From positions 1-57,183 of the forward strand of contig CACJAI010000006.1 in the NCBI GenBank assembly GCA_902591315.1: 57,183 nt of DNA, read 5' to 3'. Shown piece after piece: positions 9,568-31,638 of the stretch. The notes below the pieces were generated by a model that searched no databases, had not been told where the DNA came from, and saw only the letters and a program-made list of their open reading frames with translations. How positions within the stretch are numbered: the stretch's first letter is position 1; every line of letters starts with the position of its first letter. This DNA comes from an uncultured Alphaproteobacteria bacterium. Its GTDB lineage: Bacteria; Pseudomonadota; Alphaproteobacteria; HIMB59. The position numbers were made by a program, and so were the translations under genes.

Positions 9568-10716
9568 TTGTTTAATTCAATCAAAAAGATTGAACAAGGA
9601 AGTAGTATTGATCATGTAATTAACCACTATCCAAAACTGAAAAGAAGTTTTTTATTTTTAGTTGTACAAGAGTATTATAGAAATTACGAAAATCATAATA
9701 GAATACTTTTAAATTATATTCATAATAAAACATCAAAAAATATTTTAACTCTTTTAAAAATTAGCCTCACACTATTATTTTTCTCAAATAAACCTGCTTT
9801 TGCAATAGTTAACGACTCAGTAAAAGAGGGAAAGTTTTTGAAAAAGGAAAAGTTAGTGAATGCTGTTCTTAGAAATATTTTGCGTGACAAATATAAGATA
9901 AAATATGACAAATTCATTTACCCTGATTTTAAAAAAATTCTTGATAAAATATTTTCCAGCAATTCAATAAGAGATTATGTTTACTCTACTTTATTTACTA
10001 AGCCTGAAAATTATCAAATTAGTTTAATTGATAAAGAAGATGCTCTTTATGGCAAAAGAGTATTTAGGTTGGAAAAAAAGATTATTAAAGGATGTTTTGT
10101 CCAAGATGTTGGCAATTTTGAAGTTATTAACACTGTACATAAATTTTTTAAAAATAAAAATTTAATTGATGTGTGTGCTGCACCTGGTGGTAAAAGTATA
10201 TTATTAAATTCATTAGGGTTTAATGTTTATGCCATTGATAAGTCTCAAAAACAAATTAATAAATTTAAAGAAAATATAAATCGCTTAAATTTAAAAATAA
10301 ATATACAGCAAATAGATTTTTTAAAAAAAAGATTTACTAGTAGATATGACTCAATTTTATTGGATGCTCCTTGTAGTGCTCTAGGAACCTTTAGAAGAAA
10401 CCCTGATGTTACTGTCAAAATTGATAAACCTGACATGAGGAAACAACAAAAGACTCAGATACAAATGATTGAAAAATCATTAAAAATACTCAATAAAAAT
10501 GGCTTTATAGTTTATATTGTTTGCTCATTTCACCCCTTTGAGACAATCGAAGTCATTGATAAAATTATGCAAAAACATAAAAATATTAGATTGCACAACA
10601 TAAATTCAAATAAAATGATAAAGAGACAAAATGGATATTTTATTAACCCATTGAGCTTTAAAGAGATCGGAGGATCCGATATATTTTTTGTTTCTGTAAT
10701 AGAAAAAATAAGATGA
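9568..10716 (+). CDS. rsmB: 16S rRNA (cytosine-967-C5)-methyltransferase
   Basis: Methylates C967 of 16S rRNA using SAM. The N-terminal roughly 130 residues form the NusB-like RNA-binding domain (for example LVNAVLRNILRD). The C-terminal Rossmann methyltransferase has DVCAAPGGKS for SAM binding, LLDAPCSALGTFRRNPD with the release cysteine, and YIVCSFHPFET with the nucleophilic cysteine. The 382-residue protein is slightly short for the family. The start is TTG at 9568; no upstream or nearby ATG would keep the NusB domain. It overlaps rpe by four bases. Confidence 0.93.
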   Translation: MFNSIKKIEQGSSIDHVINHYPKLKRSFLFLVVQEYYRNYENHNRILLNYIHNKTSKNILTLLKISLTLLFFSNKPAFAIVNDSVKEGKFLKKEKLVNAVLRNILRDKYKIKYDKFIYPDFKKILDKIFSSNSIRDYVYSTLFTKPENYQISLIDKEDALYGKRVFRLEKKIIKGCFVQDVGNFEVINTVHKFFKNKNLIDVCAAPGGKSILLNSLGFNVYAIDKSQKQINKFKENINRLNLKINIQQIDFLKKRFTSRYDSILLDAPCSALGTFRRNPDVTVKIDKPDMRKQQKTQIQMIEKSLKILNKNGFIVYIVCSFHPFETIEVIDKIMQKHKNIRLHNINSNKMIKRQNGYFINPLSFKEIGGSDIFFVSVIEKIR

Positions 10717-11372
10717 AAACAATTATATCTCCATCAATTTTAGGTGGATCATTTTCGAATATGGAAAAAACTATATCTGAACTTGATCAATCAAAAGCGG
10801 AGTATATTCATTTTGATGTGATGGATGGTGATTTTGTTCCAAATTTAACATTTGGACCAAAATTCATTTCAGATTTACGATTTAAATCAAAAAAAATTTT
10901 TGATGTACACTTAATGGTTAATAGAGTTGGCAATTTTTTAGATGATTATATTGATGCAGGATCAGATATAATAACTTTTCATTGTGAAATTGATGAAAAC
11001 ATAAATGAACTTATTAATAAGATAAAAGAAAAGAAAAGAAAAGTAGGTATTGCTATAAAGCCAAAAACACCGTGGGAAGAAGTTAAGAAATATTTACATC
11101 ATATTGATCAAATTATTATTATGACTGTAGAGCCTGGCTTTGGAGGGCAATCATTTTTGAATAATCAAATTGAAAAAATTCAGAACTTATCAAACTATGT
11201 TAAAGAAAATAATTTGAATATTAATATTGAAATTGATGGTGGGATAAATTATGAAACTGGAAAGCTTTGTATACAAGCTGGAGCAAATGTACTAGTCGCA
11301 GGTTCATTTTTATTTAAACAAGAAGATTTAATTATAGCAACTGATAAATTAGATGACTTTTTTAATAAATGA
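10713..11372 (+). CDS. rpe: Ribulose-phosphate 3-epimerase
   Basis: Interconverts ribulose-5-phosphate and xylulose-5-phosphate in the non-oxidative pentose phosphate pathway. A TIM-barrel enzyme of 219 residues with all signatures: PSILGGSFSNME, HFDVMDGDFVPNLTFGP (metal ligand and catalytic Asp), DVHLMV, TVEPGFGGQSF and EIDGGIN with the second catalytic Asp. It overlaps rsmB and purH by four bases each, so translation of the three is probably coupled. The rsmB-rpe-purH arrangement is shared with other alphaproteobacteria. Confidence 0.97.
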   Translation: MKTIISPSILGGSFSNMEKTISELDQSKAEYIHFDVMDGDFVPNLTFGPKFISDLRFKSKKIFDVHLMVNRVGNFLDDYIDAGSDIITFHCEIDENINELINKIKEKKRKVGIAIKPKTPWEEVKKYLHHIDQIIIMTVEPGFGGQSFLNNQIEKIQNLSNYVKENNLNINIEIDGGINYETGKLCIQAGANVLVAGSFLFKQEDLIIATDKLDDFFNK

Positions 11373-12838
11373 AAAAATATAAAAATGCTCTTATATCGGT
11401 ATTTGATAAAAATAAACTTGACCAAATTGCTCATTATTTAATAAAAAAAAAATATACAATTTATTCAACTGGTGGTTCATCACAATATTTAAAAAAAATT
11501 CATGTACCACATATTGAAATAACAAAATATACTAAGCAAAAAGAAATATTAGGAGGAAGAGTAAAAACTCTTCATCCAAAAATTTTTGGAGGAATTCTAG
11601 CTACTAACTCTAAAAATCACCAATCCGAGCTTAATAAAGAGAAGATTATCAATTTCGATTTAATCATAGTAAATCTCTACCCTTTTGAGGAAACAATCAA
11701 AAACTCAACAAAAAAAGATGAAATAATTGAGATGATAGACATTGGTGGCCATAGCCTTATAAGGGCAGCAGTAAAAAATTACCTAAAAACTACAGTAATT
11801 ATTGATCCTTTGGATTACTCAAATTTTATAAAAAACTCTCCTAAGACGGACTCTGCTAAAAAAAAATATGCGATTAAAGCTATGGAGCAAATCACTAAAT
11901 ATGACATTGCGATAACAAATTGGTTTCAAGGAAATGAAAATGAAATATATCCACTAAGATATGGTGAGAATCCACAACAGAAGGCAAATGCATTAATTCG
12001 CAAGAATATATTTAAACAATTATGCGGTGAGAAAAAACTGAGTTACAACAATTTGTTGGATTTAGATGCTGCAGTTTCAATATCATATTCGACGAATTCA
12101 AAGAAACACATTTGCACTATAGTCAAACACAATACTCCATGCGGTGCATCAATAGGAAATAGTCAAGCGAAAAGTTACGAAAATGCACTTGATGGTGACC
12201 CAATTAGTGCCTTTGGTGGAATTGTAGCTTTCAATAAGAGAGTTTCTACCCTAACAGCTAAAAAATTAATTGGCAATTATTATGAAGTAATTGCAGCTCC
12301 TGATTATGATATTGAAGCTCTAAATATTTTAAAAAAGAAAAAAAACTTAAGAGTCTTGAAAGTTAAGAAATTTAAAACGAGAATAGAACAAAGATCCATT
12401 TTTGCAGGCACTCTTATTCAGGATGCTAATAATAAGAAATCCAAAGTAAAAAAAATATTTGGTGTAAATAAATTAAATATTGAAAAATTTGAGTTTTTTA
12501 TAAATGTTTTGAAAAATATAAAATCAAATGCAATTGCACTTTTTGATCAATCAAGTTTGATCTCTCAATCTGGAGGACAGACTTCAAGAGTGGACTCACT
12601 TGAAAATTGTTTATACAAATTCAAAATTAGACAGAAGAAAAAGAAAAAGACTAGATTATTTTTATTTTCAGATGCCTTTTTTCCATTCATAGACTCTCTA
12701 AAGTTAATTAAAAATGAAAAACTAAATATTGATGTTTATGCTCCCGTGGGGTCTAAAAATGATCCCCATATTATAAATTTCGTTAAAGAAAATAAAATTA
12801 ATTTTTTTGAAATAAGCGATCGTCACTTTAAACATTGA
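11369..12838 (+). CDS. purH: AICAR transformylase / IMP cyclohydrolase
   Basis: Bifunctional enzyme for the last two steps of IMP synthesis. The N-terminal MGS-like cyclohydrolase domain (about residues 1-190) shows STGGSSQYLKK and GGRVKTLHPKIFGG. The AICAR transformylase domain has RYGENPQQKA, the catalytic KHNTPCG, GDPISAFGGIVAFN, SGGQTSRVDS, SDAFFPFID and the terminal ISDRHFKH. At 489 residues it is shorter than the usual 510-530, through small loop losses rather than loss of a motif. It overlaps rpe upstream and the MerR-like small gene downstream. Confidence 0.97.
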   Translation: MKKYKNALISVFDKNKLDQIAHYLIKKKYTIYSTGGSSQYLKKIHVPHIEITKYTKQKEILGGRVKTLHPKIFGGILATNSKNHQSELNKEKIINFDLIIVNLYPFEETIKNSTKKDEIIEMIDIGGHSLIRAAVKNYLKTTVIIDPLDYSNFIKNSPKTDSAKKKYAIKAMEQITKYDIAITNWFQGNENEIYPLRYGENPQQKANALIRKNIFKQLCGEKKLSYNNLLDLDAAVSISYSTNSKKHICTIVKHNTPCGASIGNSQAKSYENALDGDPISAFGGIVAFNKRVSTLTAKKLIGNYYEVIAAPDYDIEALNILKKKKNLRVLKVKKFKTRIEQRSIFAGTLIQDANNKKSKVKKIFGVNKLNIEKFEFFINVLKNIKSNAIALFDQSSLISQSGGQTSRVDSLENCLYKFKIRQKKKKKTRLFLFSDAFFPFIDSLKLIKNEKLNIDVYAPVGSKNDPHIINFVKENKINFFEISDRHFKH

Positions 12839-13143
12839 TTGATATTTTCAAAAATAAACCTCCTAAAAAAAATTATATTTTAATGAAAAGGTATCAAAGT
12901 GTAGAATTTAAGAAAAAGTATTCTATTGAGATTTTAGAGACTTTTTTTAAGGAATTTCCTGAAGAAAAGAGAGGAAGAAAAAGATTTAAAGAGAAAGAAA
13001 TACAAAATATTAAACATCTTCTTTATGAAGAGATATTTCAAAAGGGAATAAAAATTAAAGCAGACTGTATTGGTTTAATTAAAGAAAAAGTGGATAAAGA
13101 ATATATAACCATTAAAGTGTCTTTTTTTAAGAAATATGGATGA
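12835..13143 (+). CDS. Small basic protein, possible degenerate MerR-type HTH
   Basis: A 102-residue Lys/Glu-rich protein. The middle (YQSVEFKKKYSIEIL, then FFKEFPEEKRGRKRFKEKEI and IKHLLYEE) lines up by eye with the alphaproteobacterial MerR-family pattern: a short helix-turn-helix, FWE..FP, a wing ending in G-R-R-Y, then E-D-V..I..IKHLLY and a helix. The arm is shortened and the final Gly-Tyr-Thr-Ile segment has become KGIKIKADCIGLIKE. DNA binding is therefore uncertain. It starts at TTG 12835 overlapping the purH stop codon (ATG 12883 is an alternative) and overlaps the HAD gene by eight bases. A hypothetical protein is the cautious label. Confidence 0.4.
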   Translation: MIDIFKNKPPKKNYILMKRYQSVEFKKKYSIEILETFFKEFPEEKRGRKRFKEKEIQNIKHLLYEEIFQKGIKIKADCIGLIKEKVDKEYITIKVSFFKKYG

Positions 13144-13696
13144 TAACAAAATATTATTTGTTGATTTGGATGGTACGCTTATAGAAGAAGACTTGTCTAA
13201 TTTAGCATTTATTAATTATTTTAAAAAATATCCATTTAAGTGCATTTTTTATCTCGTGTTGTTGCCATTTAAAGGCAAGGCATTTTTAAAAGAAAAAATT
13301 TCTGCTAATTTTCATGTGCCTTTTAATGAACTTAAATTTAATATAACCGCATTAGAGTATATTAAATTTGTAAAAAATAGGCATAGAGTTGTTTATTTGA
13401 TATCTGGAAGCCATCAGCACCTAGTTAATCAAATACACGATCATTTAAAAATTTTTTTTGAGTCTTTTGGCACAAAAGATAATTTTAACATGGTTGGAAT
13501 AAATAAAGTAAATTTTATCAAAAATAATTTAAATATTTATGATTTCCAATATCTTGGCAATAGTACCAAAGACATACCAATATGGAGATTTTGTAAAAAA
13601 ATTTTATATACTAATGCCGACCAAAGACTTCAAAAAGTTATTCTCACATCAGATTTAGAAAAAGAAGAAATAAAAGCAAGCTTTAAATTTCAATAA
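13136..13696 (+). CDS. HAD-superfamily phosphatase-like protein
   Basis: A 186-residue protein with haloacid dehalogenase motifs: motif I LFVDLDGTL (D10, D12), motif II ISGSHQ, and a motif IV-like LGNSTKDIPIW in which the usual first Asp is Asn. A hydrophobic stretch (about residues 32-45) makes up part of the cap. The pattern DLDGTLI..DL....F and the closing D-I-P-I-W resemble the HAD half of the HAD-UbiA prenyltransferase fusion proteins. Here no UbiA domain follows. The substrate is unknown, and the Asn in motif IV could weaken magnesium binding. It abuts lysE-like with a one-base overlap. Confidence 0.7.
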   Translation: MDDNKILFVDLDGTLIEEDLSNLAFINYFKKYPFKCIFYLVLLPFKGKAFLKEKISANFHVPFNELKFNITALEYIKFVKNRHRVVYLISGSHQHLVNQIHDHLKIFFESFGTKDNFNMVGINKVNFIKNNLNIYDFQYLGNSTKDIPIWRFCKKILYTNADQRLQKVILTSDLEKEEIKASFKFQ

Positions 13697-14322
13697 TGTC
13701 TCTGATTGTATTTATACAAGTTTTTTTTGTATGTTTATTTGGTGCCATGTCTCCAGGTCCAAGTATGGCAGTGGTTATAAACAATGCTGTATTTAAAAAT
13801 AGATATCACGGTGTTTTGACATCAATCGGTCATGGATTAGGAATAACAATATACGCAATTTTTGCAGTGATTGGAATTGGCCTAATCATTAATACAAATA
13901 TTTTAATTTTTAATGGTATGAAAATAATATCAATTATGTTTCTCATATACTTAGGTTTAAAAGCAATTACTAATAAAGAAAAAGTTAACTTTGAAAATAA
14001 AGAATTATCGGGCAGAGCAACTTCATTTTTTCAAGGATTGAGTATTGCTATACTTAACCCAAAAATCTTAGTATGGTTTGTGGCTATTTATTCTCAGTTT
14101 ATGTCAAAAAGTAATGATTTTCTATTTAACACATATTTAGTTTTAATAGCGGGTGTTATAGATACTTGCTGGTATATATTACTAACAATTATGGCGACGT
14201 CAGATGTGGCCTTGAGGTATTTAAAATCCAAAAGCGATATTCTACAAAAATTATTAGGATTTATTTTTATAATGATAGGAATGGTTTTGATATTGGATTT
14301 ATACTTAACATTTAATAAATAA
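13696..14322 (+). CDS. LysE/RhtB family amino-acid exporter
   Basis: A 208-residue inner-membrane protein with about six transmembrane helices. The family signature GAMSPGPSMAVVINNAVFKN appears in the first helix-loop, followed by GHGLGITIYAIFAV, IYLGLKAI and SIAILNPKILVWFVAIYSQF. LysE/RhtB proteins export amino acids such as lysine, threonine or homoserine lactone; the cargo here cannot be assigned. It is the last gene of the tightly overlapping rsmB-rpe-purH run; beyond it, spacers become larger and the glycan island begins. Confidence 0.88.
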   Translation: MSLIVFIQVFFVCLFGAMSPGPSMAVVINNAVFKNRYHGVLTSIGHGLGITIYAIFAVIGIGLIINTNILIFNGMKIISIMFLIYLGLKAITNKEKVNFENKELSGRATSFFQGLSIAILNPKILVWFVAIYSQFMSKSNDFLFNTYLVLIAGVIDTCWYILLTIMATSDVALRYLKSKSDILQKLLGFIFIMIGMVLILDLYLTFNK

Positions 14323-14381
14323 TATAATTTTTTAAATGAAACATAGTATGTTACTAATATTCTGTCATTTAATTTAGAAAA

Positions 14382-15074
14382 ATGAAAAATATATATATTG
14401 GGTATGACACTAGAGAAGATATAGCTTATCAAGTAAGTAAATTTAGCCTAACTAATAAATCTAAGGATATAGAAGTGCATCCTTTAAAGTTAACGGAGCT
14501 AAGAGATAAACAGCTTTATTGGAGAGATGAGGATAAACTAGGATCTACGGAGTTTACATTCTCTCGATTCTTAGTGCCCGAATTAAATAATTTTAAAGGT
14601 TGGGCTTTGTTTTGTGATTGTGATCTTTTATTTATGGAGGATGTTAACAATTTGTTTGCTCTTACTGATAATCAGTATGCCCTAATGTGTGTAAAACATG
14701 ATTATAATCCAAAAGAGGGAACTAAAATGGATGGTAAGCAACAAACAATTTATCCAAGAAAAAATTGGAGTTCAGTTGTCCTATGGAATTGTGGTCATGA
14801 GTCTAATAAAAAAATAAATAGAGAATTAGTTAACAACCCAGATACGACTGGAAAATATCTACATAGATTTAGCTGGTTGGAGGATCATGAGATTGGTTCT
14901 ATACCACATCATTGGAATTGGTTGGCAGGATGGTATGAGGAGCCAAAAGATGGGACACCAAAAGCAATACATTATACCGAAGGAGGACCGTGGTTTGAAA
15001 ATTATCGTTTTTGCGAGTATCACCAACTCTGGAAGGACACGTTATCTGAGATGATGGCTAATAAAAGCAATTAA
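14382..15074 (+). CDS. Glycosyltransferase-like protein (GT-A, DxD)
   Basis: A 230-residue protein opening NIYIGYDTREDIAYQV, with SRFLVPELNNFKGWALF followed by the metal-binding D-C-D (residues 79-81) in FCDCDLLF. Further on are SSVVLWNCGH, WLEDHEIGSIPHHWNW and AIHYTEGGPWF. This layout resembles glycosyltransferase family 8-type enzymes that transfer sugars from nucleotide-sugars with a divalent metal, and similar proteins occur in marine bacteria and their phages. Donor and acceptor are unknown. No signal peptide is visible, so it is cytoplasmic. A 59-base AT-rich spacer precedes it and no Shine-Dalgarno sequence is seen. Confidence 0.75.
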   Translation: MKNIYIGYDTREDIAYQVSKFSLTNKSKDIEVHPLKLTELRDKQLYWRDEDKLGSTEFTFSRFLVPELNNFKGWALFCDCDLLFMEDVNNLFALTDNQYALMCVKHDYNPKEGTKMDGKQQTIYPRKNWSSVVLWNCGHESNKKINRELVNNPDTTGKYLHRFSWLEDHEIGSIPHHWNWLAGWYEEPKDGTPKAIHYTEGGPWFENYRFCEYHQLWKDTLSEMMANKSN

Positions 15075-15145
15075 AATAATCTTAAATTTTAATTTTTGAA
15101 TGAATACAAAAATGAATTTCACTATAACTATAATTAGCTAAACTA

Positions 15146-15916
15146 ATGACATCTATAGACTGCTACTATACAGATCATTTTGTTAACCAAACAGTTACTC
15201 AATTTTTTTCAAAAAGCTTAGGTTTAAATTTATATGAATTAAATGAATATAAAAACTCCTCTAATATTTTTGCGACTTATGGCATTCTTAGAGGAACAGG
15301 AGAAATAATAAAAGAAAGAAAAGAAAACTTTATATATTTAGACCATGGTTACTTTAATTCTTCTACTCGAAGGTTTACAAAGGAAAAAAATACTATTTTA
15401 ACTAACTTAGAGGGATACTTTCGGGTTGTAAAGGATGACCTTTATTTTAATAAATCAAAACTCAATAATAATGAAAAAAGGTTTAAAGAGCTAAACATAA
15501 AACTGAAGGAGAAAAAAACTGGAGATATTATTATTTTATCTGAACCAACAGAAAATACTTCTAAGTTTCTAGGATTGAATAATTGGAAAGAGGAAACAAT
15601 CAAAGCCATTAAAAGTCACACTGATAGAGAGATTGTAATTCATAATAAATTTTCTGAAATAACGTTGAATGAATTATTACAAAAAGCTTATGCGTTTGTT
15701 AGTTGCCAATCTACAGCAGGATTCATGTCTATAATAGAGGGTGTTCCAGCATTTTTTACACATAGTAGTTTAAAAGAATATGGTGACATAAAAGACATTG
15801 AGCAAAATAAATTAAATTATGATTTGTTATACTGTGCTGCAAATTCACAGTGGAAATTGAAAGAGTTTTTTAGTGATGACTTTAAAGAGTATATAAATAA
15901 AATTATTTCAATTTAG
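15146..15916 (+). CDS. Glycan-biosynthesis protein, GT-B-like (unassigned)
   Basis: A 256-residue soluble protein I cannot assign to a named enzyme. It contains FATYGILRGTGEIIKE, YLDHGYFN, a central IIILSEPTENT strand and a C-terminal FVSCQSTAGFMSIIEGVPAFF segment. That last segment resembles the nucleotide-sugar-binding half of GT-B or capsule-polysaccharide transferases, where a Ser/Thr-Ala-Gly turn is followed by a Glu-Gly helix start. The same layout, with TYTSGLAVDSLINGCPTIA, recurs in the gene at 18897, so the two may be distant paralogues. Its neighbours support surface-glycan synthesis. Spacing to the next gene is two bases. Confidence 0.5.
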   Translation: MTSIDCYYTDHFVNQTVTQFFSKSLGLNLYELNEYKNSSNIFATYGILRGTGEIIKERKENFIYLDHGYFNSSTRRFTKEKNTILTNLEGYFRVVKDDLYFNKSKLNNNEKRFKELNIKLKEKKTGDIIILSEPTENTSKFLGLNNWKEETIKAIKSHTDREIVIHNKFSEITLNELLQKAYAFVSCQSTAGFMSIIEGVPAFFTHSSLKEYGDIKDIEQNKLNYDLLYCAANSQWKLKEFFSDDFKEYINKIISI

Positions 15917-15918
15917 GT

Positions 15919-16203
15919 ATGACAGCATTTATTTTATCTTTATCGTTTTTAATCATTTGCTTATATGGGTACTACTTAGCTATTAGACAATCTAAATTAG
16001 AAAAAGAGCTAAGACAAAACAACATGGAATATGAATGTTTTAAATGTAAAATAAAACTACCTATAAACACAATAAAATGTCCGAGGTGTTCTTTGATAAC
16101 AATATATGGTACACGCAGAAAAAATTTTTGGTTGATTATTCCTATCGCTATATTTTGGCTTTTTATGTTAGGTAAATGGTCAAAGGTAGGAATGTTTGGA
16201 TAA
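15919..16203 (+). CDS. Small membrane protein with CxxC zinc ribbon
   Basis: A 94-residue protein with an N-terminal membrane helix (about residues 3-22), a short charged linker, a zinc-ribbon-like loop with C40, C43, C54 and C57 (YECFKCKIKL and IKCPRCSL), and a second membrane helix (about 70-86). The four cysteines should bind one zinc on the side of the membrane where the loop lies. I do not recognise the family. It is probably translated together with the preceding glycan gene, whose stop codon is two bases upstream. A role in anchoring or regulating that enzyme is possible but not shown. Confidence 0.6.
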   Translation: MTAFILSLSFLIICLYGYYLAIRQSKLEKELRQNNMEYECFKCKIKLPINTIKCPRCSLITIYGTRRKNFWLIIPIAIFWLFMLGKWSKVGMFG

Positions 16204-16292
16204 ATACTTTTTTAATACATTCTATCTTAAATTATAAGTTTTATTTAAAATATATTTTATATAGTTAACATTAGAAGAGCATTTAGATTTAT

Positions 16293-17945
16293 ATGAGTAA
16301 TTTAAAAAAACAAGCAGTAGAGTTATTTAATAACAAAAAATATGAAAAAAGCTTAAGTATTTTTTTGTCTATTTTAAAAACAAACCCTAAATCAAAAGAC
16401 GTACTTTTATATACCTCTTACAACTATATGAAAATGGGAGATTTTAAAACAGCTATAATTTATTTTGAAAAAATAATTCAATTAGATAAGAAATTACCAC
16501 AAGTATATTACAATATGGGTGTTTGCTTTAATATTTTAGGAAAGAAAATTGATGCTATTGATAGTTTTAAAAAAGCAATTTCTTTAAAAGATAATTATCT
16601 TGAGTCATATATTCAAATTGGTCAATTATTTAAAAAGCTGAGTCTGTTAGATGAAGCAATTAAAATTTACAAATTAGCATTACCTAAGGTGACTCAAAAA
16701 GACACAATTAACGTAAATATTTCAGAAGTTTATTATTTACAAAAAAACTACCAATTATCTATAAAGTATGCAGAGGATGCTCTTAATTTAAATGCAAAAA
16801 ACTATTTTGCAAAAATTAATATAGCAAACTGTCTGATGGACAAGGGAGAAATAGAAAAAGGTATAATTGAGCTTGAACAAGCTAAATTAATTAATTCTAA
16901 TTCCTCAATGGTTTTTAATAATTTAGGCTATGGTTATAAATTATTAGGTAATGAAAATGAGGCAATTATAAACTACAAAAAAGCAATTGAATTAAATCCA
17001 AAACTTCATGATGCACATTTTAATTTGTCACATATACAATTGGCTCAAAATAATTTTATAGATGGCTGGAAAAACTACGAATTTCGTTTTGGAACTCAGA
17101 AAAAATTTACTAATCAATTAAAAACAAACAAGCCTCAATGGGATACAGGATACGGATATGGAACAATATTAATTTGGGGTGAGCAAGGTATTGGAGAGCA
17201 AATACTATTTGGCTCTATATTACCTGATGTTATGTCTAAATTTAAAAAAGTAATATTATGTGTAGAGGATAAGTTAGTAGAAATTTTCCAAAAAAAATTT
17301 AATAAATTAGAGGTTATTCCGTTATCAAAAAAAATAGATGAAAGTATGTTTGATTATCATTTACCAATTTGCTCACTTGGTAAATTTTTTAGGAAAGATC
17401 TAAGAAGTTTTCTTTATAACAAAGAAGAAAATCAAATTGATTATAATACTCAAATATCAAATAGAAAGCTGAAATGTGCTGTTTCTTGGAAAAGTTCAAA
17501 TGAAAATTTGAAGAATATTAAATCAATTTCATTAGAGGATTTGAAGGAAATTTTAATGATAGATAAAATTGATTTTTACAATATTCAGTACACAAATGAG
17601 GATGATGAAGTAGAAGCATTCAAAAAAAAATACGATATAACTATTCACAAGAATAATGAACTCGATACATTTAATGATCTTAATGATCTCAATGAATTTA
17701 TTAAAACATGTGATTTTGTAATTACTGTCAGTAATAGTAATGCACATTTGTCAGCATCCATTGGAAAGACAACATATCTATTGCTACCGAATACAAAAGG
17801 TAAATTTTGGTACTGGGAAAATGAAGAAAATGGTAAAAATATTTGGTATCCATCTATCATAAAATTTAAACAAGAAACACAAGGGGACTGGTCAGAACCA
17901 ATTAAAAAATTAAAAGAAAAAATAATAGAGAAATATTTGTCTTAA
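16293..17945 (+). CDS. TPR-repeat glycosyltransferase-like protein
   Basis: A 550-residue protein with about seven tetratricopeptide repeats in residues 1-245 (for example VYYNMGVCFNILGKKIDAI and NNLGYGYKLLGNENEAI). These are followed by the typical junction FIDGWKNYEFRF and then a C-terminal glycosyltransferase-like domain. That domain shows ILIWGEQGIGEQILFGSILP and ends with VITVSNSNAHLSASIGKTTY and IWYPS, the pattern of GT41/GT9-related TPR proteins. The usual Asp-Thr before the final His is replaced by Ser-Asn, which may alter catalysis. Such proteins are common in bacterial surface-glycosylation islands; acceptor and sugar are unknown. Confidence 0.75.
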   Translation: MSNLKKQAVELFNNKKYEKSLSIFLSILKTNPKSKDVLLYTSYNYMKMGDFKTAIIYFEKIIQLDKKLPQVYYNMGVCFNILGKKIDAIDSFKKAISLKDNYLESYIQIGQLFKKLSLLDEAIKIYKLALPKVTQKDTINVNISEVYYLQKNYQLSIKYAEDALNLNAKNYFAKINIANCLMDKGEIEKGIIELEQAKLINSNSSMVFNNLGYGYKLLGNENEAIINYKKAIELNPKLHDAHFNLSHIQLAQNNFIDGWKNYEFRFGTQKKFTNQLKTNKPQWDTGYGYGTILIWGEQGIGEQILFGSILPDVMSKFKKVILCVEDKLVEIFQKKFNKLEVIPLSKKIDESMFDYHLPICSLGKFFRKDLRSFLYNKEENQIDYNTQISNRKLKCAVSWKSSNENLKNIKSISLEDLKEILMIDKIDFYNIQYTNEDDEVEAFKKKYDITIHKNNELDTFNDLNDLNEFIKTCDFVITVSNSNAHLSASIGKTTYLLLPNTKGKFWYWENEENGKNIWYPSIIKFKQETQGDWSEPIKKLKEKIIEKYLS

Positions 17946-18032
17946 AAAAACAGCAATCATGTATTAGAGTAATTTTTAATAATTATTTTGTAAAATTTTT
18001 AATACACCAGGTAACTTAATAAATAGAAATAA

Positions 18033-18836
18033 ATGTCTTTAGCTTTTGTCTCAACTATGAATAAAAAACTTTATGATGAGTACGGCAAAAGATTTATAAA
18101 TGAATTTATTGATAATGCTCATGAAGATATAAAATTATTCATTATATTTGAGGGAAATTGTCCAAATGAAATTATTAATTTAAAGAAGAATTTAATAACA
18201 ATTCCTTTAATGAATGCAGAACACAATAAATTTATAAGATTTTTTGGAAATTTATTTGAAGCAAAAGGTCTAAAGGTTCGCTTTTTTGAGGAAAATGGTC
18301 AGAAAAAGATAAATCTTAATCAGGATTACAAGTTTAATGCAGTGAGATTTTCTTTTAAGCCTTTTTCCATACATCAAGTTCTAGAGTATTTACCTGATGA
18401 TTTAGAATATTTAATTTGGACTGATGCCGATTTAAGGTGCAAGAAAAATTTTAATTTCAACTCTCTTCAAAGATTTCTGCCTAGCAAAGACGAACTGATG
18501 TCCTACTTAGGAAGGAGGAATCAATATTCTGAGTGTGGTTTTTTAGGTTTTAATCTTGAACACAATGAATTCGAAAATTTTATAAATCGAATAATAAAAA
18601 TTTATACCTCTGGTGAAATCTTTTCGTTACAAGAATGGCATGACAGCTTTATATGGGATCACGTTAGATCAGAATATGAAAATAAAGAAATAAAGTTTAA
18701 AAATATTTCAAATAAAGGCTTTGATCATTACCATCCCTTTATTAATTCAGGACTTGAAGAATTTTTTGATCATCTTAAGGGTCCCAACAGAAAGAAAGAT
18801 GGGGCATCACCAGATAAGGATTATTTAGGTAAATGA
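18033..18836 (+). CDS. Glycosyltransferase-like protein (DxD)
   Basis: A 267-residue soluble protein. It opens LAFVSTMNKKLYDEYGKRF and has a VRFSFKPFSIHQVLEYL helix before the strand-loop LIWTDADLR, with a D-A-D motif at residues 131-133. It continues with GRRNQYSECGFLGFNL and EWHDSFIWDHVR. These are hallmarks of GT-A-type transferases acting on nucleotide-sugars with a metal, where a later Cys-Gly-Phe-Leu-Gly segment contacts the acceptor and a Trp-His-Asp follows. The exact family is not clear to me. It stands alone between 87- and 60-base AT-rich spacers, consistent with its own promoter. Confidence 0.6.
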   Translation: MSLAFVSTMNKKLYDEYGKRFINEFIDNAHEDIKLFIIFEGNCPNEIINLKKNLITIPLMNAEHNKFIRFFGNLFEAKGLKVRFFEENGQKKINLNQDYKFNAVRFSFKPFSIHQVLEYLPDDLEYLIWTDADLRCKKNFNFNSLQRFLPSKDELMSYLGRRNQYSECGFLGFNLEHNEFENFINRIIKIYTSGEIFSLQEWHDSFIWDHVRSEYENKEIKFKNISNKGFDHYHPFINSGLEEFFDHLKGPNRKKDGASPDKDYLGK

Positions 18837-18896
18837 CAAAACTATAAATATTTCTAATAATAATAAAATGCAACTATTAGATCCTCATAAAATTAT

Positions 18897-19799
18897 ATGA
18901 ACATTGGTATTTTTCTTAAATCAGCAAATGATATTTATTTTGAACAAGCACTAGTCTACTTTGCTGAAGGAATTAAACAACATGGAGAAAATCCAATATT
19001 AATTGATGCAGAAACATATCAAGATTGCGACATTAGTATTTTCTTTGGATCGTGGAAAAGTTCTAATTATTTACATCACAAGTTAAAAAATGAGATAGTA
19101 AAAAAATCTGATAAATTTGTTTGTCTTGAAACACCTTTGATTGGTAGACGTGAAGTTAAACCAATTTTTGATGATGACTCTTTTCGAGTGGGTGTGAATG
19201 GTTTTTTAAATAATAATGGTATTTTTTATAAAGGTGAATGTCCCTCTGACAGATGGGACTTAATTAGTAAGAAATTTAATTTAAAGCTTGATGACTGGAA
19301 TGTTCCGGATCCCAATGCTCCAATATTGGTCGCTTTACAGTTACCCCACGATGCATCTTTACGGGGATGTAATATAATAGAATGGGCATTTAGTATAAGT
19401 AAGCAAATTCGTTCGGTTAGTGAGAGAAAAATTGTAATTAGAACACCACAATTAGAAAAAAAATACGAAAAGAAGTGGATTGATGAACTAATGAATATTA
19501 ATAATATATTTTTTCAAACTGGTACAAAAAAAAATCTAATACCTACTTTGAAAACTAGTCACTGCACTGTTACATATACTTCTGGTTTGGCAGTTGATTC
19601 GCTAATCAATGGCTGTCCAACAATTGCATGTAACGAAGGAAATTTTTGTTATGAGGTTTCGCAAAATGATCCGCTTGAAGTCGAAAATATAAAATATTTT
19701 GACAGGTCTCAATGGATTAACAACTTATCATACTGTCAATGGGATCTGCTTGAAATAAAAAACGGGAGCTGTTGGGAACATATAAAAAAAATAATATAA
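18897..19799 (+). CDS. GT-B-like glycan-biosynthesis protein
   Basis: A 300-residue soluble protein with two Rossmann-like halves. The first contains NIGIFLKSANDIYFEQAL, FFGSWKSSNYLH and VCLETPLIGR. The second begins PILVALQLPHDASLRGCN, then IVIRTPQLEKK, TYTSGLAVDSLINGCPTIA and NEGNFCYEVS. The LQLPxDxSLRG segment is characteristic of a capsule/LPS-type transferase group seen in marine bacteria and phages, which lacks a named activity. The Ser-Gly then Gly-Cys-Pro-Thr arrangement would bind the nucleotide-sugar. It is followed after 14 bases by the exported lyase-like gene. Confidence 0.5.
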   Translation: MNIGIFLKSANDIYFEQALVYFAEGIKQHGENPILIDAETYQDCDISIFFGSWKSSNYLHHKLKNEIVKKSDKFVCLETPLIGRREVKPIFDDDSFRVGVNGFLNNNGIFYKGECPSDRWDLISKKFNLKLDDWNVPDPNAPILVALQLPHDASLRGCNIIEWAFSISKQIRSVSERKIVIRTPQLEKKYEKKWIDELMNINNIFFQTGTKKNLIPTLKTSHCTVTYTSGLAVDSLINGCPTIACNEGNFCYEVSQNDPLEVENIKYFDRSQWINNLSYCQWDLLEIKNGSCWEHIKKII

Positions 19800-19813
19800 A
19801 CTATTAAGTAATA

Positions 19814-20689
19814 ATGATTGTAAAATCAGTCAGTAAAATATCCAAAATAATATTTATTTTATTAGTTTTCAAAACTAATGCCTTGTCTAATAATTTCCTT
19901 ATTGATCAAGATGATAAATTATTCATAGAAACGACAAATAGTGGTTTTAAATTTCATAAAAATTTTATGAGCCAAAATAAACATAACTTTAATTATATTA
20001 TGGACAATTCTAAATCACGTAGTGGAAATTATTATCAAAAATTTGAACTTAGAAATGGTGATTGTTTTGGTGATGAAAAATGGAATGATTGTAAAAATGA
20101 TAGACAAAGGATTGAACTTTCATCAGAGCCAAATCAACCAGTTTCTGGAAAACAATGTTATGGTTATAGTATAAAACTTTCTTATGATTTTACCGATATT
20201 AGAAAAGTTAGCACTACATTGGGCCAGATACATCAAAAGGGTGGCCCATCTGGAAAAGCAAATAGTTTATCTTCCTTCCCACCGTTGATTCAGGTTGATG
20301 CTAGAAAGGGAAATTTGTATTTAAATTGGCATAAATTAAGTGGTTCAAGAGACGATGTTAAGGATGAGTCAAAATATTATAAATTAAAAACATTAAAAAG
20401 CATGAAAGGCGTGTGGACAGATATCTCTTTATGCTTAGATTTTGAAAATAAGAGAATAGATGCCTGGGTTGATGGGAATAATGTTGTAAAGATTTTACAG
20501 TCACCGATATTTTTTGTTCCAGAGTCAATTTACTTTAAGCACGGTATATATCAGTCATTCGTAAGTAACTACACATCATTCAAAGGGGGGACACCTACAC
20601 AAATTGTATATTATGACGAAGTAAGAAGGGGCAGTTCTATTGAAGACGTAGATATCAACGTTAACCCCGATTTAAAATTTGTTGATTAA
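19814..20689 (+). CDS. Exported polysaccharide-lyase-like protein
   Basis: A 291-residue protein with a signal peptide (hydrophobic core about residues 9-19, likely cleavage near ALS-NN). The mature part has DRQRIELSSEP, then YGYSIKLSYDF, TLGQIHQKGGPSG, a WTDISLCLDFENKRIDAWVDG stretch and IYFKHGIYQSF near the end. This order matches the heparin-lyase-I-like Polysacc_lyase family (PF14099), beta-jelly-roll enzymes that cleave acidic polysaccharides. QRIEL and the H-Q-K strand contribute to the active-site groove. The substrate is unknown; it could trim the organism's own surface glycan or attack an external polymer. It is the last gene of the island before tRNA-Gly. Confidence 0.65.
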   Translation: MIVKSVSKISKIIFILLVFKTNALSNNFLIDQDDKLFIETTNSGFKFHKNFMSQNKHNFNYIMDNSKSRSGNYYQKFELRNGDCFGDEKWNDCKNDRQRIELSSEPNQPVSGKQCYGYSIKLSYDFTDIRKVSTTLGQIHQKGGPSGKANSLSSFPPLIQVDARKGNLYLNWHKLSGSRDDVKDESKYYKLKTLKSMKGVWTDISLCLDFENKRIDAWVDGNNVVKILQSPIFFVPESIYFKHGIYQSFVSNYTSFKGGTPTQIVYYDEVRRGSSIEDVDINVNPDLKFVD

Positions 20690-20704
20690 TATGGTTATAT
20701 AATT

Positions 20705-20779
20705 TGGAGCGGGCGAAGGGATTCGAACCCTCGACTTCAACCTTGGCAAGGTTGCGCTCTACCCCTGAGCTACGCCCGC
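20705..20779 (-). tRNA. tRNA-Gly (anticodon GCC)
   Basis: The reverse strand folds into a full cloverleaf. Acceptor stem is GCGGGCG/CGCCCGC, the D arm is GCTC-AGGGGTA-GAGC, and the anticodon stem-loop is CAACC-TTGCCAA-GGTTG with GCC as anticodon. The T loop GGTTCGAATC is normal. The discriminator base is T and the CCA end is encoded at 20705-20707. The glycan island lies on its 3' side, the usual side for integration, but no duplicate of the tRNA end was found. Confidence 0.97.
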
Positions 20780-20887
20780 TTTAATGTGTTAAAACGATGT
20801 TATTTTATAAACCTCAAATTAAAACCTATCAAGGTAAAAGGTAATTTCGTTTGTTGTAAATACAGTATTTGATACTATTTCTAAAAC

Positions 20888-21757
20888 ATGAGTTTTGTAA
20901 TTGACATTAACCAAGATCAGTTTGTAGATGAAGTAATTGAAAAATCTAAAACTGTACCTGTAATAGTAGACTTTTGGGCACCCTGGTGTGGACCTTGCAA
21001 GCAGTTAACACCAATACTCGAAAAAGTGGTTAACAAAAAAAATGGAAAAATAATACTTGCAAAAATTAATGTTGACGAAAACCAAGGAATATCCTCCCAG
21101 CTAAATATCCAGTCAATTCCAACTGTTTACGGATTTGTTGATGGTAAACCGATAGATGCCTTTCAAGGCGCTCAGCCAGAGAGCAAAATAGATGCTATGG
21201 CAGATAAAATGATTGAGGCAACACCTGGAAATGAAATACCCAAGATTATTGAAGAAGCATATCAATTACTTGCAGATCAAAAATTTGAAGAGTCCTTAAA
21301 GCTTTTTGAAAATCTGGTTGCCATGGATCCAGGAAATCCAAAAATAATTTCTGGAATGTTAAGAAGTCTACTTCAACTTAAGAAATTTGATGAAGCTAAA
21401 GAAATAATAGAATCATTAGATGATAATGTTCTGAAGGATGAAGAGATTATTAAAGTTAAGAAGCTCTTAGATAGTACTAATACAAAAAATGATGAGGGGC
21501 TTGATGAAAAATTAATTCAAGAAGTTAATGCTAATCCTGAAAATATGGATCTACGCTATAAACTAGCTAATAATTATCTTTCATTAAATGAGACTGAAAA
21601 AGGTTTTAATGAGCTTTTAAAATTATTTGAACAAAACCCTAGTTGGAACGATGAAGCTGCAAAGAAAAAACTTTTAGAATTTTTTGACCTATTAGGTTTT
21701 AGTGATCCAAATGTAATAAATGCTCGAAAAAAATTATCAAGTATAATGTTTAAGTGA
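20888..21757 (+). CDS. cnoX: Thioredoxin-TPR protein, CnoX/YbbN family
   Basis: A 289-residue protein with an N-terminal thioredoxin domain (about residues 1-108) and C-terminal TPR-type helices (about 115-289). The redox site is intact: VDFWAPWCGPCKQL, followed by the cis-proline loop IQSIPTVYGF. CnoX combines holdase chaperone activity with thioredoxin-like redox function; the E. coli protein has lost the first active-site Cys, whereas alphaproteobacterial versions such as Caulobacter's keep WCGPC as seen here. It overlaps the LON-domain gene by four bases. A simple thioredoxin is excluded by the long C-terminal extension. Confidence 0.88.
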   Translation: MSFVIDINQDQFVDEVIEKSKTVPVIVDFWAPWCGPCKQLTPILEKVVNKKNGKIILAKINVDENQGISSQLNIQSIPTVYGFVDGKPIDAFQGAQPESKIDAMADKMIEATPGNEIPKIIEEAYQLLADQKFEESLKLFENLVAMDPGNPKIISGMLRSLLQLKKFDEAKEIIESLDDNVLKDEEIIKVKKLLDSTNTKNDEGLDEKLIQEVNANPENMDLRYKLANNYLSLNETEKGFNELLKLFEQNPSWNDEAAKKKLLEFFDLLGFSDPNVINARKKLSSIMFK

Positions 21758-22416
21758 TGGATGATAATATAAAAAAACTTTTTGAAATCGACTCGAAAAA
21801 AATTCCAAGTTCGATACCAATATTTCCTTTAGATAATGTTTTGTTACTACCCTTTGGAAAATTACCTCTTAACATATTTGAAGAAAGATATATCAAGATG
21901 ACACTCGATAGTTTAAAGAATCATAGGATGATCGGTATAATACAGCCTAAAAATAATAACAATGAATTATTCCAAATGGGGTGTATTGGCAAAATAACTT
22001 CTTATATCGAAACTCCAGACTATCGCTTGGTTCTCAACTTAGAGGGTGTTTGTAGGTTTGTTCTTCAAGAGAGGGAACTTGTACCACAAGGTTATTATCA
22101 AGCAACCATTGACTGCCAAGATTATCTTTCAGACTTAAATAACATGGAACCTAATGTCGATCGATCAGAATTAATTCAAAAATATACCAACTTTTTTAAA
22201 ATGAAAAAATTAGACATTGATAAAGATGTGTTAGCTGAAACATCAAATTTACAACTTTTATCAACTTTAGCTATGCTGGCTCCCTTTAACAAAATAGACA
22301 AACAGGCAATACTCGAGTCACCAAATATTTCAACAAGAATAAGTACAATTAACTCTATTCTTGATTTGAACACATTCCAGGTTGTAAGTAATAAAAATCC
22401 TAATCAGTTAAATTAG
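21754..22416 (+). CDS. LON substrate-binding domain protein
   Basis: A 220-residue protein made of the Lon N-terminal (LAN) domain only, with no ATPase or protease part. The start SSIPIFPLDNVLLLPFGKLPLNIFEERY is the classic opening, followed by MGCIGKITSYIETPDYRLVLNLEGVCRF. The C-terminal helical part ends with TISTINSILDLN. In alphaproteobacteria this gene follows the thioredoxin-TPR gene, as here, suggesting a shared role in protein quality control, but no function is established. It ends in a 17-base overlap with the convergent ubiH-like gene. Confidence 0.85.
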   Translation: MMDDNIKKLFEIDSKKIPSSIPIFPLDNVLLLPFGKLPLNIFEERYIKMTLDSLKNHRMIGIIQPKNNNNELFQMGCIGKITSYIETPDYRLVLNLEGVCRFVLQERELVPQGYYQATIDCQDYLSDLNNMEPNVDRSELIQKYTNFFKMKKLDIDKDVLAETSNLQLLSTLAMLAPFNKIDKQAILESPNISTRISTINSILDLNTFQVVSNKNPNQLN

Positions 22417-23521
22417 ACCTTCCCATAGCCTGTTTTATAAATAAATCTCTAATAAATTTTAAATTAACAAGGGAATTAAATCCTAACTTTATAATTTGAG
22501 TATTTAAAGAGCTTTTATTTTCATATAAGTAATTTAATACAGATGTAAAACTTAAATAAATAACACTCTCAATAATTCTTCTGGAATAATAGGCTGAATT
22601 GAAATTTTTTGATTCAATGCTGTATTGATCTAACAAATTACATAATGTTTGAATGTCTTTAACGCCCAAATTCCAGCCTTGACCTGCAACTGGATGTATG
22701 GATTTTAGACTATCTCCGATATAGATATAGTTTTTATTATTTTTTAAAATATGAGGAGTAATAGGGTATTTATATATAAAGCTATCAAAAGTTAGTTTAC
22801 CATGCGATTCTGAAATTTTTTCAAATATCAGTTTTTGTATTTTAGATTTATTTGTTTTTTCTTTTGAAGAATAAATGAAAGTTGATGTTTTTTTATCATG
22901 ATTAGGTGATGGTAAAATAGCCAAAGGTCCTTCGTGTGTAAAGAATTCATATGCTATGTTTTTATGACTCAAGGAGTGTTTAAAAAAGCCAACATAAGAG
23001 TGATGTTGTTGGTCAAAAATAACACTACTGTGATTTTTATCTGAAATAATATTTTTACCAACACTTACTACTACTTTTTTAAAAATATAATTCTTTTTAT
23101 TTATAATAAGTTTTTTATTTGGTAAGACATCTCTAATATCAAAATTAATACCAGAAACTAAAATTTTCAATTTTTCTAATTTATCTATTGCAATTTTATG
23201 CATATCTTTATTGAAGATAACATTACCCATGGTTTCTTTATCATTTTCGAAAACAAGGTCCTGTGTATTATAGTTATCTTGAATAACGATTTTATTAATT
23301 GGTTGTGGCTTAATTTTAAGTTTATTCCAGACACCTAACTTTTTTAAGAAATCAACAGAATTAGCATTTACTGCTAAAGTTCTTTTATCTTTATTAATGC
23401 TATTTTTCTTATCTATTACTAAAACTGTAAATTTTTTTTTAACTAAAGCCAAAGCTGCAAGAGCTCCTATTAGGCCAGCACCAATTATTAAAAAATCATA
23501 TTTATATATTTTATTTTTCAT
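22400..23521 (-). CDS. UbiH/UbiF/UbiL-family FAD monooxygenase
   Basis: A flavoprotein hydroxylase of the ubiquinone-biosynthesis group, about 373 residues. The N-terminal dinucleotide fold is YDFLIIGAGLIGALAALAL, and the second FAD motif is IYIGDSLKSIHPVAGQGWNLG near residues 285-305. The canonical G-D-A-A-H there is G-D-S-L-K, a mild departure. It should add a ring hydroxyl on the ubiquinone precursor; which position cannot be told from sequence. The frame runs to 23593, but ATG 23521 gives MKNKIYKYDFLIIGAG, the normal start, and leaves a 26-base gap to divergent ftsK. Confidence 0.88.
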   Translation of the reverse strand: MKNKIYKYDFLIIGAGLIGALAALALVKKKFTVLVIDKKNSINKDKRTLAVNANSVDFLKKLGVWNKLKIKPQPINKIVIQDNYNTQDLVFENDKETMGNVIFNKDMHKIAIDKLEKLKILVSGINFDIRDVLPNKKLIINKKNYIFKKVVVSVGKNIISDKNHSSVIFDQQHHSYVGFFKHSLSHKNIAYEFFTHEGPLAILPSPNHDKKTSTFIYSSKEKTNKSKIQKLIFEKISESHGKLTFDSFIYKYPITPHILKNNKNYIYIGDSLKSIHPVAGQGWNLGVKDIQTLCNLLDQYSIESKNFNSAYYSRRIIESVIYLSFTSVLNYLYENKSSLNTQIIKLGFNSLVNLKFIRDLFIKQAMGRSNLTD

Positions 23522-23547
23522 TAAGACGCATATATTTATTAAAAACA

Positions 23548-25620
23548 ATGAAGAATAGCTATATTCCAGAAATCTTAAAAGAAAAAATCTCAAAGATTAC
23601 TTATTTTTTATATGCCACTCTCCTTTTAACAATCTGTATCTTGTCTGCTATTGCTTTATTTTCATTTAGTATAAATGATAACTCTTTCTTAACCAGCACC
23701 AGTAATACATCACAAAATGTTTTAGGGAATATTGGATCATACTATGCTAGTTTTCTCTTTTACACATTTGGTATTTTAGCATATTTAATTATAATTTTTT
23801 TCCTCATATATTCTTTACTCGTATATTTTTATAAAAGTCCAAATTACTTTTTTATAAGATTATTTTTATTTTTTATTAGTTTAATCTTAATACCTCAAAT
23901 CTTAATTGAGTTTAATATACAGCCTACATTTATTGACTCCCTAGAAGTATGGGGGGTTTTTGCTAGTCAATTAAATGATCTCTATGTCATTAAATATGTA
24001 AGTTATATTCTAACATTTTTAGGTTTGATAGTTTTCTTCTTTTCACAGAATATTTTAAGTTTATTTAAAATACCGAGAATTAGATTTAATATTTTAAAAA
24101 GAAATACTAAAAATAGTTTTATAAGTCAAAAAATAAAAAAAGAACCAATTATAAATAATAACCAAGAATATTTTTCATCTGAAGAAGAAGAAATTAAAGA
24201 ATATAAAAATAAAAAAAATTTTGATCAAAAAACAAAATATTTTTCTCCATCACTTGAAATCTTAGACTCAAATAATTCTTCATCTAAAAAGAAAATTGAA
24301 AAAGAGGATTTTAAGGCTATATCAGATTTACTCGAAAAAGTATTTCAAGACTTTAATATTGAAATACAAGTTGTGAATGTAAAGCTTGGTCCAGTTGTTA
24401 CATTATTTGAAATTTTGCCCGCTGCAGGAATAAAAATAAATACAATAATTAATTTAGCAGACGATATCTCTAGAAGTATGGGAGTTGGAGCAGTTCGGAT
24501 ATCACAGATATATGGAACACAATACTTAGGGGTAGAGGTCCCTAATGAAAGAAGAGAAGCTGTTACAATCAAGGAACTTTTAAGTAATGAGAATTTTAAA
24601 AATACTTCATTCAAAATACCAATATGCATAGGGAAAGATATTTCTGGAAATATTGAGGTAATAGATTTAAGTAAAACACCTCACTTATTGGTAGCCGGTA
24701 CTACAGGTTCAGGTAAATCAGTTTTTATAAATACTTTACTTGCGAGTATATTGTATAAATTTTCTCCAGACGATTTACGATTAATACTAATAGATCCAAA
24801 AATGTTAGAGCTTAGTGTTTATAATGACATTGCCCACTTGTTAACACCAGTTGTAACGGAACCAAAAAAAGCAATTTTAGCTCTTAAGTGGGTATGCAAA
24901 GAAATGGAAAGAAGGTATTCTTTGATGAACGAAGAAAATACAAGAAGCTTGGAAGGCTTTAACGAAAAATCATCAGAAAAACTTCCTTACATTGTTGTAT
25001 TCATTGACGAAATGGCAGATTTAATGATGACTGCTGGTAAAGAAGTTGAACATTATGTTCAAAGACTCGCACAAATGGCAAGAGCATGTGGAATACATTT
25101 AGTAATGGCAACACAAAGACCTAGTGTTGATATTATCACAGGAAGCATCAAAGCAAACTTTCCTTCAAGGATTAGTTTTCAAGTTGCTAGCAAATATGAT
25201 AGTAGGACCGTACTTGGTGAGATAGGTGCTGAGCAATTACTTGGAAATGGAGATATGCTCATGTCAAAAAATGGAGGAAACATAATTCGTTATCAATCTG
25301 CGTTTATATCAGATAACGAAGTAAATAAATTAATAAGTGAAATCAAAAAAAGCCAAGAGGTCAAATACCTTGAAGAGCTTGATGAAATAATTAAAAATAA
25401 TGATGAGAATTTTGATACCTTAAGTGATGAGGATGAGATATTGATAAATAAATCAATCGACCTTATAAAATTAAGTAATAAGGCATCAACAAGTTATTTG
25501 CAAAGAAACTTTCAAATTGGTTACAATAAAGCTGCAAGGCTCATGGAGGCTTTAGAACAAAGAGGTATCGTGTCTCCACCCAATCATGCGGGTAAAAGAG
25601 AGATTTTAATCAATAATTAA
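23548..25620 (+). CDS. ftsK: DNA translocase FtsK
   Basis: Septal DNA pump that coordinates chromosome dimer resolution with division. The N-terminal part (about residues 15-180) has four membrane helices, followed by a short polar linker (about 190-245, far shorter than in E. coli). The motor has LLVAGTTGSGKSVFINTLLA (Walker A near residue 385), LILIDPKMLELSVYNDIAHL, FIDEMADLMM (Walker B) and VMATQRPSVDIITG. The C-terminal gamma winged helix (about 630-690) ends with YNKAARLMEALEQRGIVSPP. At 690 residues it is compact but complete. It overlaps the convergent regulator-like gene by 15 bases. Confidence 0.96.
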   Translation: MKNSYIPEILKEKISKITYFLYATLLLTICILSAIALFSFSINDNSFLTSTSNTSQNVLGNIGSYYASFLFYTFGILAYLIIIFFLIYSLLVYFYKSPNYFFIRLFLFFISLILIPQILIEFNIQPTFIDSLEVWGVFASQLNDLYVIKYVSYILTFLGLIVFFFSQNILSLFKIPRIRFNILKRNTKNSFISQKIKKEPIINNNQEYFSSEEEEIKEYKNKKNFDQKTKYFSPSLEILDSNNSSSKKKIEKEDFKAISDLLEKVFQDFNIEIQVVNVKLGPVVTLFEILPAAGIKINTIINLADDISRSMGVGAVRISQIYGTQYLGVEVPNERREAVTIKELLSNENFKNTSFKIPICIGKDISGNIEVIDLSKTPHLLVAGTTGSGKSVFINTLLASILYKFSPDDLRLILIDPKMLELSVYNDIAHLLTPVVTEPKKAILALKWVCKEMERRYSLMNEENTRSLEGFNEKSSEKLPYIVVFIDEMADLMMTAGKEVEHYVQRLAQMARACGIHLVMATQRPSVDIITGSIKANFPSRISFQVASKYDSRTVLGEIGAEQLLGNGDMLMSKNGGNIIRYQSAFISDNEVNKLISEIKKSQEVKYLEELDEIIKNNDENFDTLSDEDEILINKSIDLIKLSNKASTSYLQRNFQIGYNKAARLMEALEQRGIVSPPNHAGKREILINN

Positions 25621-27241: not shown

Positions 27242-27243
27242 AT

Positions 27244-28203: not shown

Positions 28204-28224
28204 TACTATATATATGCTTAAATT

Positions 28225-29808: not shown

Positions 29809-29817
29809 AATAATTAA

Positions 29818-31629: not shown

Positions 31630-31638
31630 ACTTTATTA

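Follow-up and report, generated by a model that had tools for sequence, protein, structure and literature searches.

We analysed a 57,183-nucleotide window (contig CACJAI010000006.1) from the genome of an uncultured alphaproteobacterium of the order HIMB59 (G000; 0.99 Mb, 65% complete), in which a small gene island lies against a tRNA gene. The island spans positions 14382-20689 and consists of seven open reading frames (ORFs), A to G, all on the plus strand and bounded by a LysE-family gene and the 3′ end of tRNA-Gly(GCC). A sequence-only reading of the window had placed seven genes here, on the 3′ side of the tRNA, and the ORFs were recovered at the same positions. The LysE-family translocator gene (13696..14322, plus strand; PF01810, 105.8 bits) is the conserved left border of an insertion hotspot, being the same neighbour in 31 genomes and terminating near the tRNA 3′ end where the site is empty. 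On the other side, tRNA-Gly(GCC) (20705..20779, minus strand) represents the attachment site of the hotspot, its 3′ end pointing towards the island at a distance of 15 bp from the stop codon of G, the last island gene. A 45-bp tRNA fragment that is repeated in relatives corresponds to tRNA positions 31-75, or 20705-20749 in the window. The adjoining thioredoxin-tetratricopeptide repeat (TPR) gene (trx; 20888..21757, plus strand) forms the conserved right border and served as the anchor for comparisons.

Gene A (14382..15074) carries a DxD motif (DCD, residues 79-81) and scored 20.9 bits against GT8, below the Pfam cut-off of 24.3, and is therefore called a GT8-like glycosyltransferase only; invariant residues were identified for this protein. 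B (15146..15916) is a GT-B-like protein near DUF2481 (26.6 bits, just under the cut-off of 27) and a homologue of F (E 5e-5), C (15919..16203) is a 94-aa membrane protein with a zinc-ribbon-like CxxC...CxxC motif, and D (16293..17945) contains multiple TPRs followed by a C-terminal domain that weakly resembles phage families, pointing to a possible transferase role. For E (18033..18836), in which a DxD at residues 131-133 is invariant, the structural model (predicted local distance difference test score, pLDDT, 85) suggests a GT-A-fold glycosyltransferase, with fold matches to BoGT6a, XXYLT1 and glycogenin at E about 1e-8 to 1e-7. The model of F (18897..19799; pLDDT 91) likewise predicts a GT-B-fold glycosyltransferase, with KrkA, KpsC and WbbB as best folds; the resemblance to KpsC/KrkA-type retaining 3-deoxy-D-manno-oct-2-ulosonic acid (Kdo) transferases (E 4e-8, template modelling score about 0.55, 13% identity) is a fold-level match. 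The tRNA-adjacent gene G (19814..20689) belongs to the polysaccharide lyase family PF14099 (68.2 bits, cut-off 29.9), and its N-terminus resembles a signal peptide, as expected of an exported enzyme. No NCBIfam name was found for A, B, E, F or G, and neither G nor A matched a sequence of solved structure. Judged from these similarities and models, the products of A-G most likely synthesise an acidic polysaccharide of the cell surface and trim it.

The spacers from LysE-A through G-tRNA measure, in order, 59, 71, 2, 89, 87, 60, 14 and 15 bp. The 14-90-base spacing described in the sequence-only reading thus holds for most pairs but not for B and C, only 2 bp apart, and the single-gene promoters proposed to occupy these spacers found no support, as promoter-like sites were not enriched in the island (38 versus 49.8 ± 7.5 in shuffled sequence). 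Base composition was ordinary (G+C 0.279 versus 0.29-0.30). In line with that reading, the interval 14323-20704 contains neither an integrase nor a tRNA fragment; known element ends are likewise absent from it. A search for degraded tRNA fragments in the spacers of the window gave no signal (p 0.4-0.99), RNA families in 9000-37000 comprised nothing besides tRNA-Gly, the island interval holds no phage structural or replication genes, and the island had no plasmid match at megablast sensitivity.

Occupancy of the site and separate gene histories

Using the thioredoxin gene as anchor, we retrieved the site from the genus and from five sister-family genomes, and mapped its occupancy in the 31 genomes that have LysE, tRNA and trx on one contig. 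The site is empty in G027, G068 and G071, where no more than a few tens of bases separate the end of LysE from the tRNA 3′ end, and there is no clear cargo gene on the tRNA 3′ side in G029, G030 and G034. Among the 31 genomes, the set A-F is restricted to G000 and to its closest sharer G012 (single-amplified genome AG-337-L15). Other relatives carry up to about 13 kb of cargo unrelated to the window's set, including sulfotransferases, FkbM methyltransferases, a GT41-type TPR protein, a NodU-type carbamoyltransferase, a CDP-glycerol-transferase-like protein, a sulfatase-like protein and an MvaI/BcnI-type restriction-modification system. Identical genes in identical order throughout the clade, which the earlier reading had named as the finding that would speak against an inserted island, were not observed, because only two of the 31 genomes share the set and three are empty. 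On the opposite side of the tRNA, insertions between its 5′ side and trx were seen at loci L056 (G030), L042 (G029), L047 (G034), L041 (G025), L036 (G006) and L046 (G018). They cut the tRNA off from its usual upstream sequence, several have a common end beginning TTAGTGTTGAGATT or similar, and G030 retains a 38-bp tRNA 5′ fragment next to trx.

The lyase gene G has a history of its own. Close copies occur in 10 other genomes, and in most carriers about 15 bp separate its end from the 3′ end of the tRNA or from a tRNA fragment. Its synonymous divergence was below that of both LysE and trx in 52 of 55 carrier pairs (trx being the sole reference in pairs without LysE), with a median of 0.38 as compared to 0.68 and 0.65 for LysE and trx, respectively. 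The lyase gene has spread separately from the genes beside it, and all that is left of it in G012 is a short relic containing a stop codon. For B-F, 0.25-0.43 of synonymous sites differ between G000 and G012, whereas ordinary core genes of this pair differ at 0.38-0.74 and A at 0.58 (one-sided p = 0.004 for A-F). B-F were therefore probably shared between the two lineages after the species split. C has a 91% identical copy in G012 and in no other genome, and E has a close copy in G012 only (162 genomes of the order); D is 84% identical in G012 and has relatives of about 30% identity at the same site in many genomes.

The divergence of the surrounding DNA is itself unusual. Across a zone of about 27 kb (9568..36644, 9.6-36.6 kb) that includes the core genes around the hotspot, synonymous differences reach about 0.5-0.8 in most genome pairs, as compared to mostly 0.0-0.5 for genes outside it. 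Such saturated flanks are the pattern expected from hitch-hiking with a locus under diversifying selection. In pairs such as G018-G005, the divergence has a breakpoint at the site, being low on the left and saturated on the right. Saturated flanks together with breakpoints indicate that homologous exchange takes place at the site, too. Accordingly, the locus shows what is described for a replacement flexible island, namely a fixed position, alternative gene sets and raised synonymous divergence at its borders. The same zone contains a second hypervariable locus at 25606-31629, which varies by allele and not by gene content: its genes, including a TPR-sulfotransferase at 28225-29808, are present in all compared genomes, at about 25-45% identity in most, at most 60-80% in G018 and G027 and up to 90-96% in G012.

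A glycosyltransferase module in common with marine phages

Gene A matched phrog_28018 with an E value of 8e-53 and has homologues in 73 IMG/VR viral contigs, at identities of up to 69%. Near these viral A genes lie homologues of F (48/73 contigs), B (45/73) and E (41/73). Two of the contigs were checked, L108 and L110, and both encode a T4-type single-strand binding protein, L108 also UvsX-like and UvsY-like proteins. In the pelagiphage Mosig EXVC030M, homologues of E, A and B directly follow one another (33%, 48% and 29% identity), and in this phage and related T4-like viruses they stand beside methyltransferases and a sulfotransferase; unlike the island, this putative glycosylation cluster adjoins nrd and ruvC and lacks a lyase. 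A, B, E and F have their counterparts in a module carried by marine T4-like phages, whereas C, D and G had no match in this module. The resemblance to marine-phage transferases suspected in the sequence-only reading is real and stronger than claimed there, and it bears on the piecemeal acquisition proposed in the same place: such a history is supported for the lyase gene but not for A, B, E and F, which form a set in viruses and are found together in G012.

A tree of 57 A proteins groups the eight HIMB59 copies in a single clade (support 100/98), within the viral sequences and apart from six alphaproteobacterial ones; the nearest viral joins are moderately supported (80/85 and 88/95). A viral source of HIMB59 gene A is likely on this basis, although the moderate support of the joins leaves it short of proof. 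B, E and F resemble their viral homologues far less closely, at 20-39% identity (up to 37% for F).

tRNA fragments, element ends and integrases in relatives

The search for attachment-site repeats suggested by the sequence-only reading yielded none in the window, but copies of the tRNA 3′ end, 30-51 bp in length, are kept in eight relatives, most of them bordered by conserved element ends with arm-type repeats. Segments of 45 bp (tRNA positions 31-75, 93-100% identical) are present in G004, G007 (two), G010, G018, G020, G022 and G066, and additional ones of 30 bp in G020 and 51 bp in G060. A common left end, TGATAAAGTCGTT...GGTGTTAAACAATTTGTTTAACACC, lies beyond nearly every 45-bp fragment, and a matching right end with GTTTAACACC-type repeats precedes five full tRNAs. 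Within the genus, the paired left and right motif occurs at the tRNA-Gly site only, and a reversed control gave zero hits. A second kind of element has TGTCACAA repeats at both ends and lies between two whole tRNA copies (G036, G060 and G011). In G036 and G060, these elements span about 6 kb and carry a tyrosine integrase directly adjoining the tRNA, plus phage-type replication or primosomal genes. In G011 (L044, from about 9.6-9.7 kb inwards), the integrase gene is readable for its first codons, after which the sequence diverges and the rest is gone; the element appears to be an integrase-deletion derivative caught mid-decay. Further element types at the site have end repeats of their own, TGTATTGCA in G001 (L052) and TGTCGGAGA in a 1.1-kb unit of G060 (L076).

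A survey of 162 HIMB59 genomes linked the integrase to this tRNA. All eight integrases at least 66% identical to the G036 copy (itself counted) abut tRNA-Gly(GCC) or its 50-52-bp fragment, and more distant ones are mostly found at other tRNAs. Related tyrosine integrases lie beside Gly, Met, Val, Thr, Ala, Leu, Arg, Gln and Lys tRNAs (L209-L238), which suggests a family that switched tRNA targets. The insertion site proposed from the window at tRNA-Gly is thus borne out by the attachment (att) scars and integrases of relatives. Among viral contigs, the exact 45-bp segment had one match, an unrelated high-GC contig with its own tRNA-Gly(GCC) (L197:4318-4392) beside an integrase-like gene; the tRNA would seem to serve as a target in unrelated elements as well.

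The order of fragments and cargo reveals how these elements are stacked. In G007, the lyase gene is alone in one layer between two fragments, and an FkbM-type methyltransferase is alone in the next. G004 (L048) and G018 (L046) have a 4.4-kb restriction-modification unit in common, with different older neighbours behind it. Layered junctions of this kind are the product of serial accretion at the tRNA. The 4.4-kb unit follows a 45-bp tRNA fragment and encodes an MvaI/BcnI-type endonuclease, a DNA methylase and a PD-(D/E)XK nuclease but no integrase; it appears to be a small mobile restriction-modification unit.

Origin and role of the hotspot occupant

Site-specific insertion and homologous replacement both appear to act at the hotspot. 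We consider it quite probable that its occupant in G000 was built by layered tRNA-targeted insertion combined with homologous replacement, that it has a surface-glycan or defence role and that its att scars were lost here. An incoming element would recombine at the 3′ half of tRNA-Gly(GCC) via a tyrosine integrase, and the insertion would rebuild a full tRNA while pushing the earlier occupant outward behind a 45-51-bp tRNA fragment. Since the tRNA would be rebuilt and the old occupant displaced each time, cargo would accumulate in layers, as the junctions in relatives demonstrate for those genomes. Many layers would have lost, or never carried, an integrase, and homologous recombination in the flanking core genes, to which the saturated flanks and the breakpoints at the site point, would shift occupants between lineages. 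In G000, the independently spread G would represent a separate layer at the tRNA and A-F a glycan-building set, in which A and E may add hexose-type sugars and B and F Kdo-like or other acidic sugars, with G cutting the acidic chain outside the cytoplasm. Switching of occupants would then change phage receptors and might aid phage evasion. Considering the window's set along with the other occupants, we infer that the hotspot is a locus altering phage receptors or blocking phage DNA.

Several observations weigh against this scheme. Att scar, element end and integrase are all absent from the window, the source genome is incomplete, the lyase layers of G007 and G020 have the left element end without the right one, and no autonomous partner with GTTTAACACC arms, which mark the commonest integrase-less unit, was found in IMG/VR or elsewhere in the genus. 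The scarless window and the saturated flanks with their breakpoints could also be explained if homologous recombination between conserved flanks alone swapped the occupants and the tRNA was a bystander, the mechanism published for the phosphate and phosphonate islands of HIMB59 (PMC10734472). We regard this as unlikely, given the exact tRNA 3′ fragments, the arm-repeat element ends and the tRNA-Gly-linked integrase clade in relatives, and a lyase gene much less diverged than both flanks; homologous replacement may nonetheless have brought A-F into G000. The clustering of A, B, E and F homologues in marine T4-like phages, and the nesting of HIMB59 gene A among viral sequences, might instead mark the set as a prophage or transduction remnant, phage DNA that stayed behind after infection, and not an island of cellular genes. 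The interval, however, is devoid of phage structural and replication genes, B, E and F share only 20-37% identity with the viral copies, C, D and G fall outside the module and G was found in no IMG/VR viral contig, making a phage remnant quite improbable. Least credible is an ordinary, vertically inherited operon with lineage-specific losses. Some families are indeed found at the site repeatedly, with D-type TPR genes, A and G present in many genomes, but gene content and order vary among genomes, and the discordant divergence of G, together with the att scars of relatives, largely refutes it.

Layered insertion with homologous replacement thus being preferred, a more far-reaching proposal concerns the integrase-less units of 0.9-4.4 kb that have a 45-bp tRNA core and arm-type repeats at one or both ends. 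Tentatively, these could be minimal gene cassettes mobilised in trans, integron-like but with a tRNA attachment site, by which one or a few surface-glycan or defence genes are swapped at a time. Integron cassettes proper have attC sites between them on which IntI acts; the junctions in relatives are tRNA-Gly 3′ ends instead, no search having been aimed at IntI.

The architecture as such is known: islands stand in tandem at an RNA gene and some of them lack an integrase, an arrangement that overlaps with those of tycheposons and flexible islands. It most resembles the tandem ssrA-specific genomic islands of Dehalococcoides and the cis-mobilizable elements (CIMEs) formed by accretion (PMC3146451, PMC5704250), where layers are likewise stacked at one single-copy RNA gene with 3′-end copies between them and the integrase is kept by some members and not others. 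In contrast to these, the HIMB59 site has a tyrosine instead of a serine recombinase, units down to about 1 kb and glycan or restriction-modification cargo. Like a tRNA-anchored island or CIME, the A-G set is present or absent at the same place among relatives and adjoins the tRNA 3′ end; because the attL/attR direct repeat of the tRNA 3′ end seen in eight relatives is lacking in the window, we call the set an occupant of the hotspot and not a proven CIME. Tycheposons, described in Prochlorococcus and reported in Methylophilaceae (PMC10872708), combine a tRNA border and a tyrosine recombinase with cargo that varies, in a streamlined marine host, features found again in the G036 and G060 elements, whereas the window's island has the tRNA without the recombinase. 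The additive flexible genomic island of Methylophilaceae also has cargo of variable size after repeats of a tRNA end, but these are 20-bp tRNA-Lys repeats (PMC10872708), as compared to 45-51-bp tRNA-Gly repeats in HIMB59, and that island has no glycan emphasis. Within the order HIMB59 itself, flexible genomic islands for lipopolysaccharide, phosphate and phosphonate, a glycotype region among them, occupy fixed positions and were explained by homologous recombination (PMC10734472); according to the authors, the borders of the phosphate and phosphonate islands are without a tRNA, and the main text of that report does not name the tRNA-Gly site. Relative to this literature, what is new is that the units are very small, that the cargo is of the glycan type, that homologous replacement coincides with them at one HIMB59 site and that a module is held in common with T4-like phages.

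So far, differences in gene content among streamlined ocean bacteria such as HIMB59 have been ascribed to homologous exchange of whole islands. The tRNA-Gly site adds a second route acting at the same place, the site-specific stacking of small cargo at one tRNA, and offers an attachment site and an integrase family that can be tested. It also links host and phage via a common glycosyltransferase module. If the cassette proposal is true, streamlined ocean bacteria would exchange glycan and defence genes via a tRNA-based, integron-like system. At the hotspot, genes for cell-surface chemistry and phage defence are probably exchanged.

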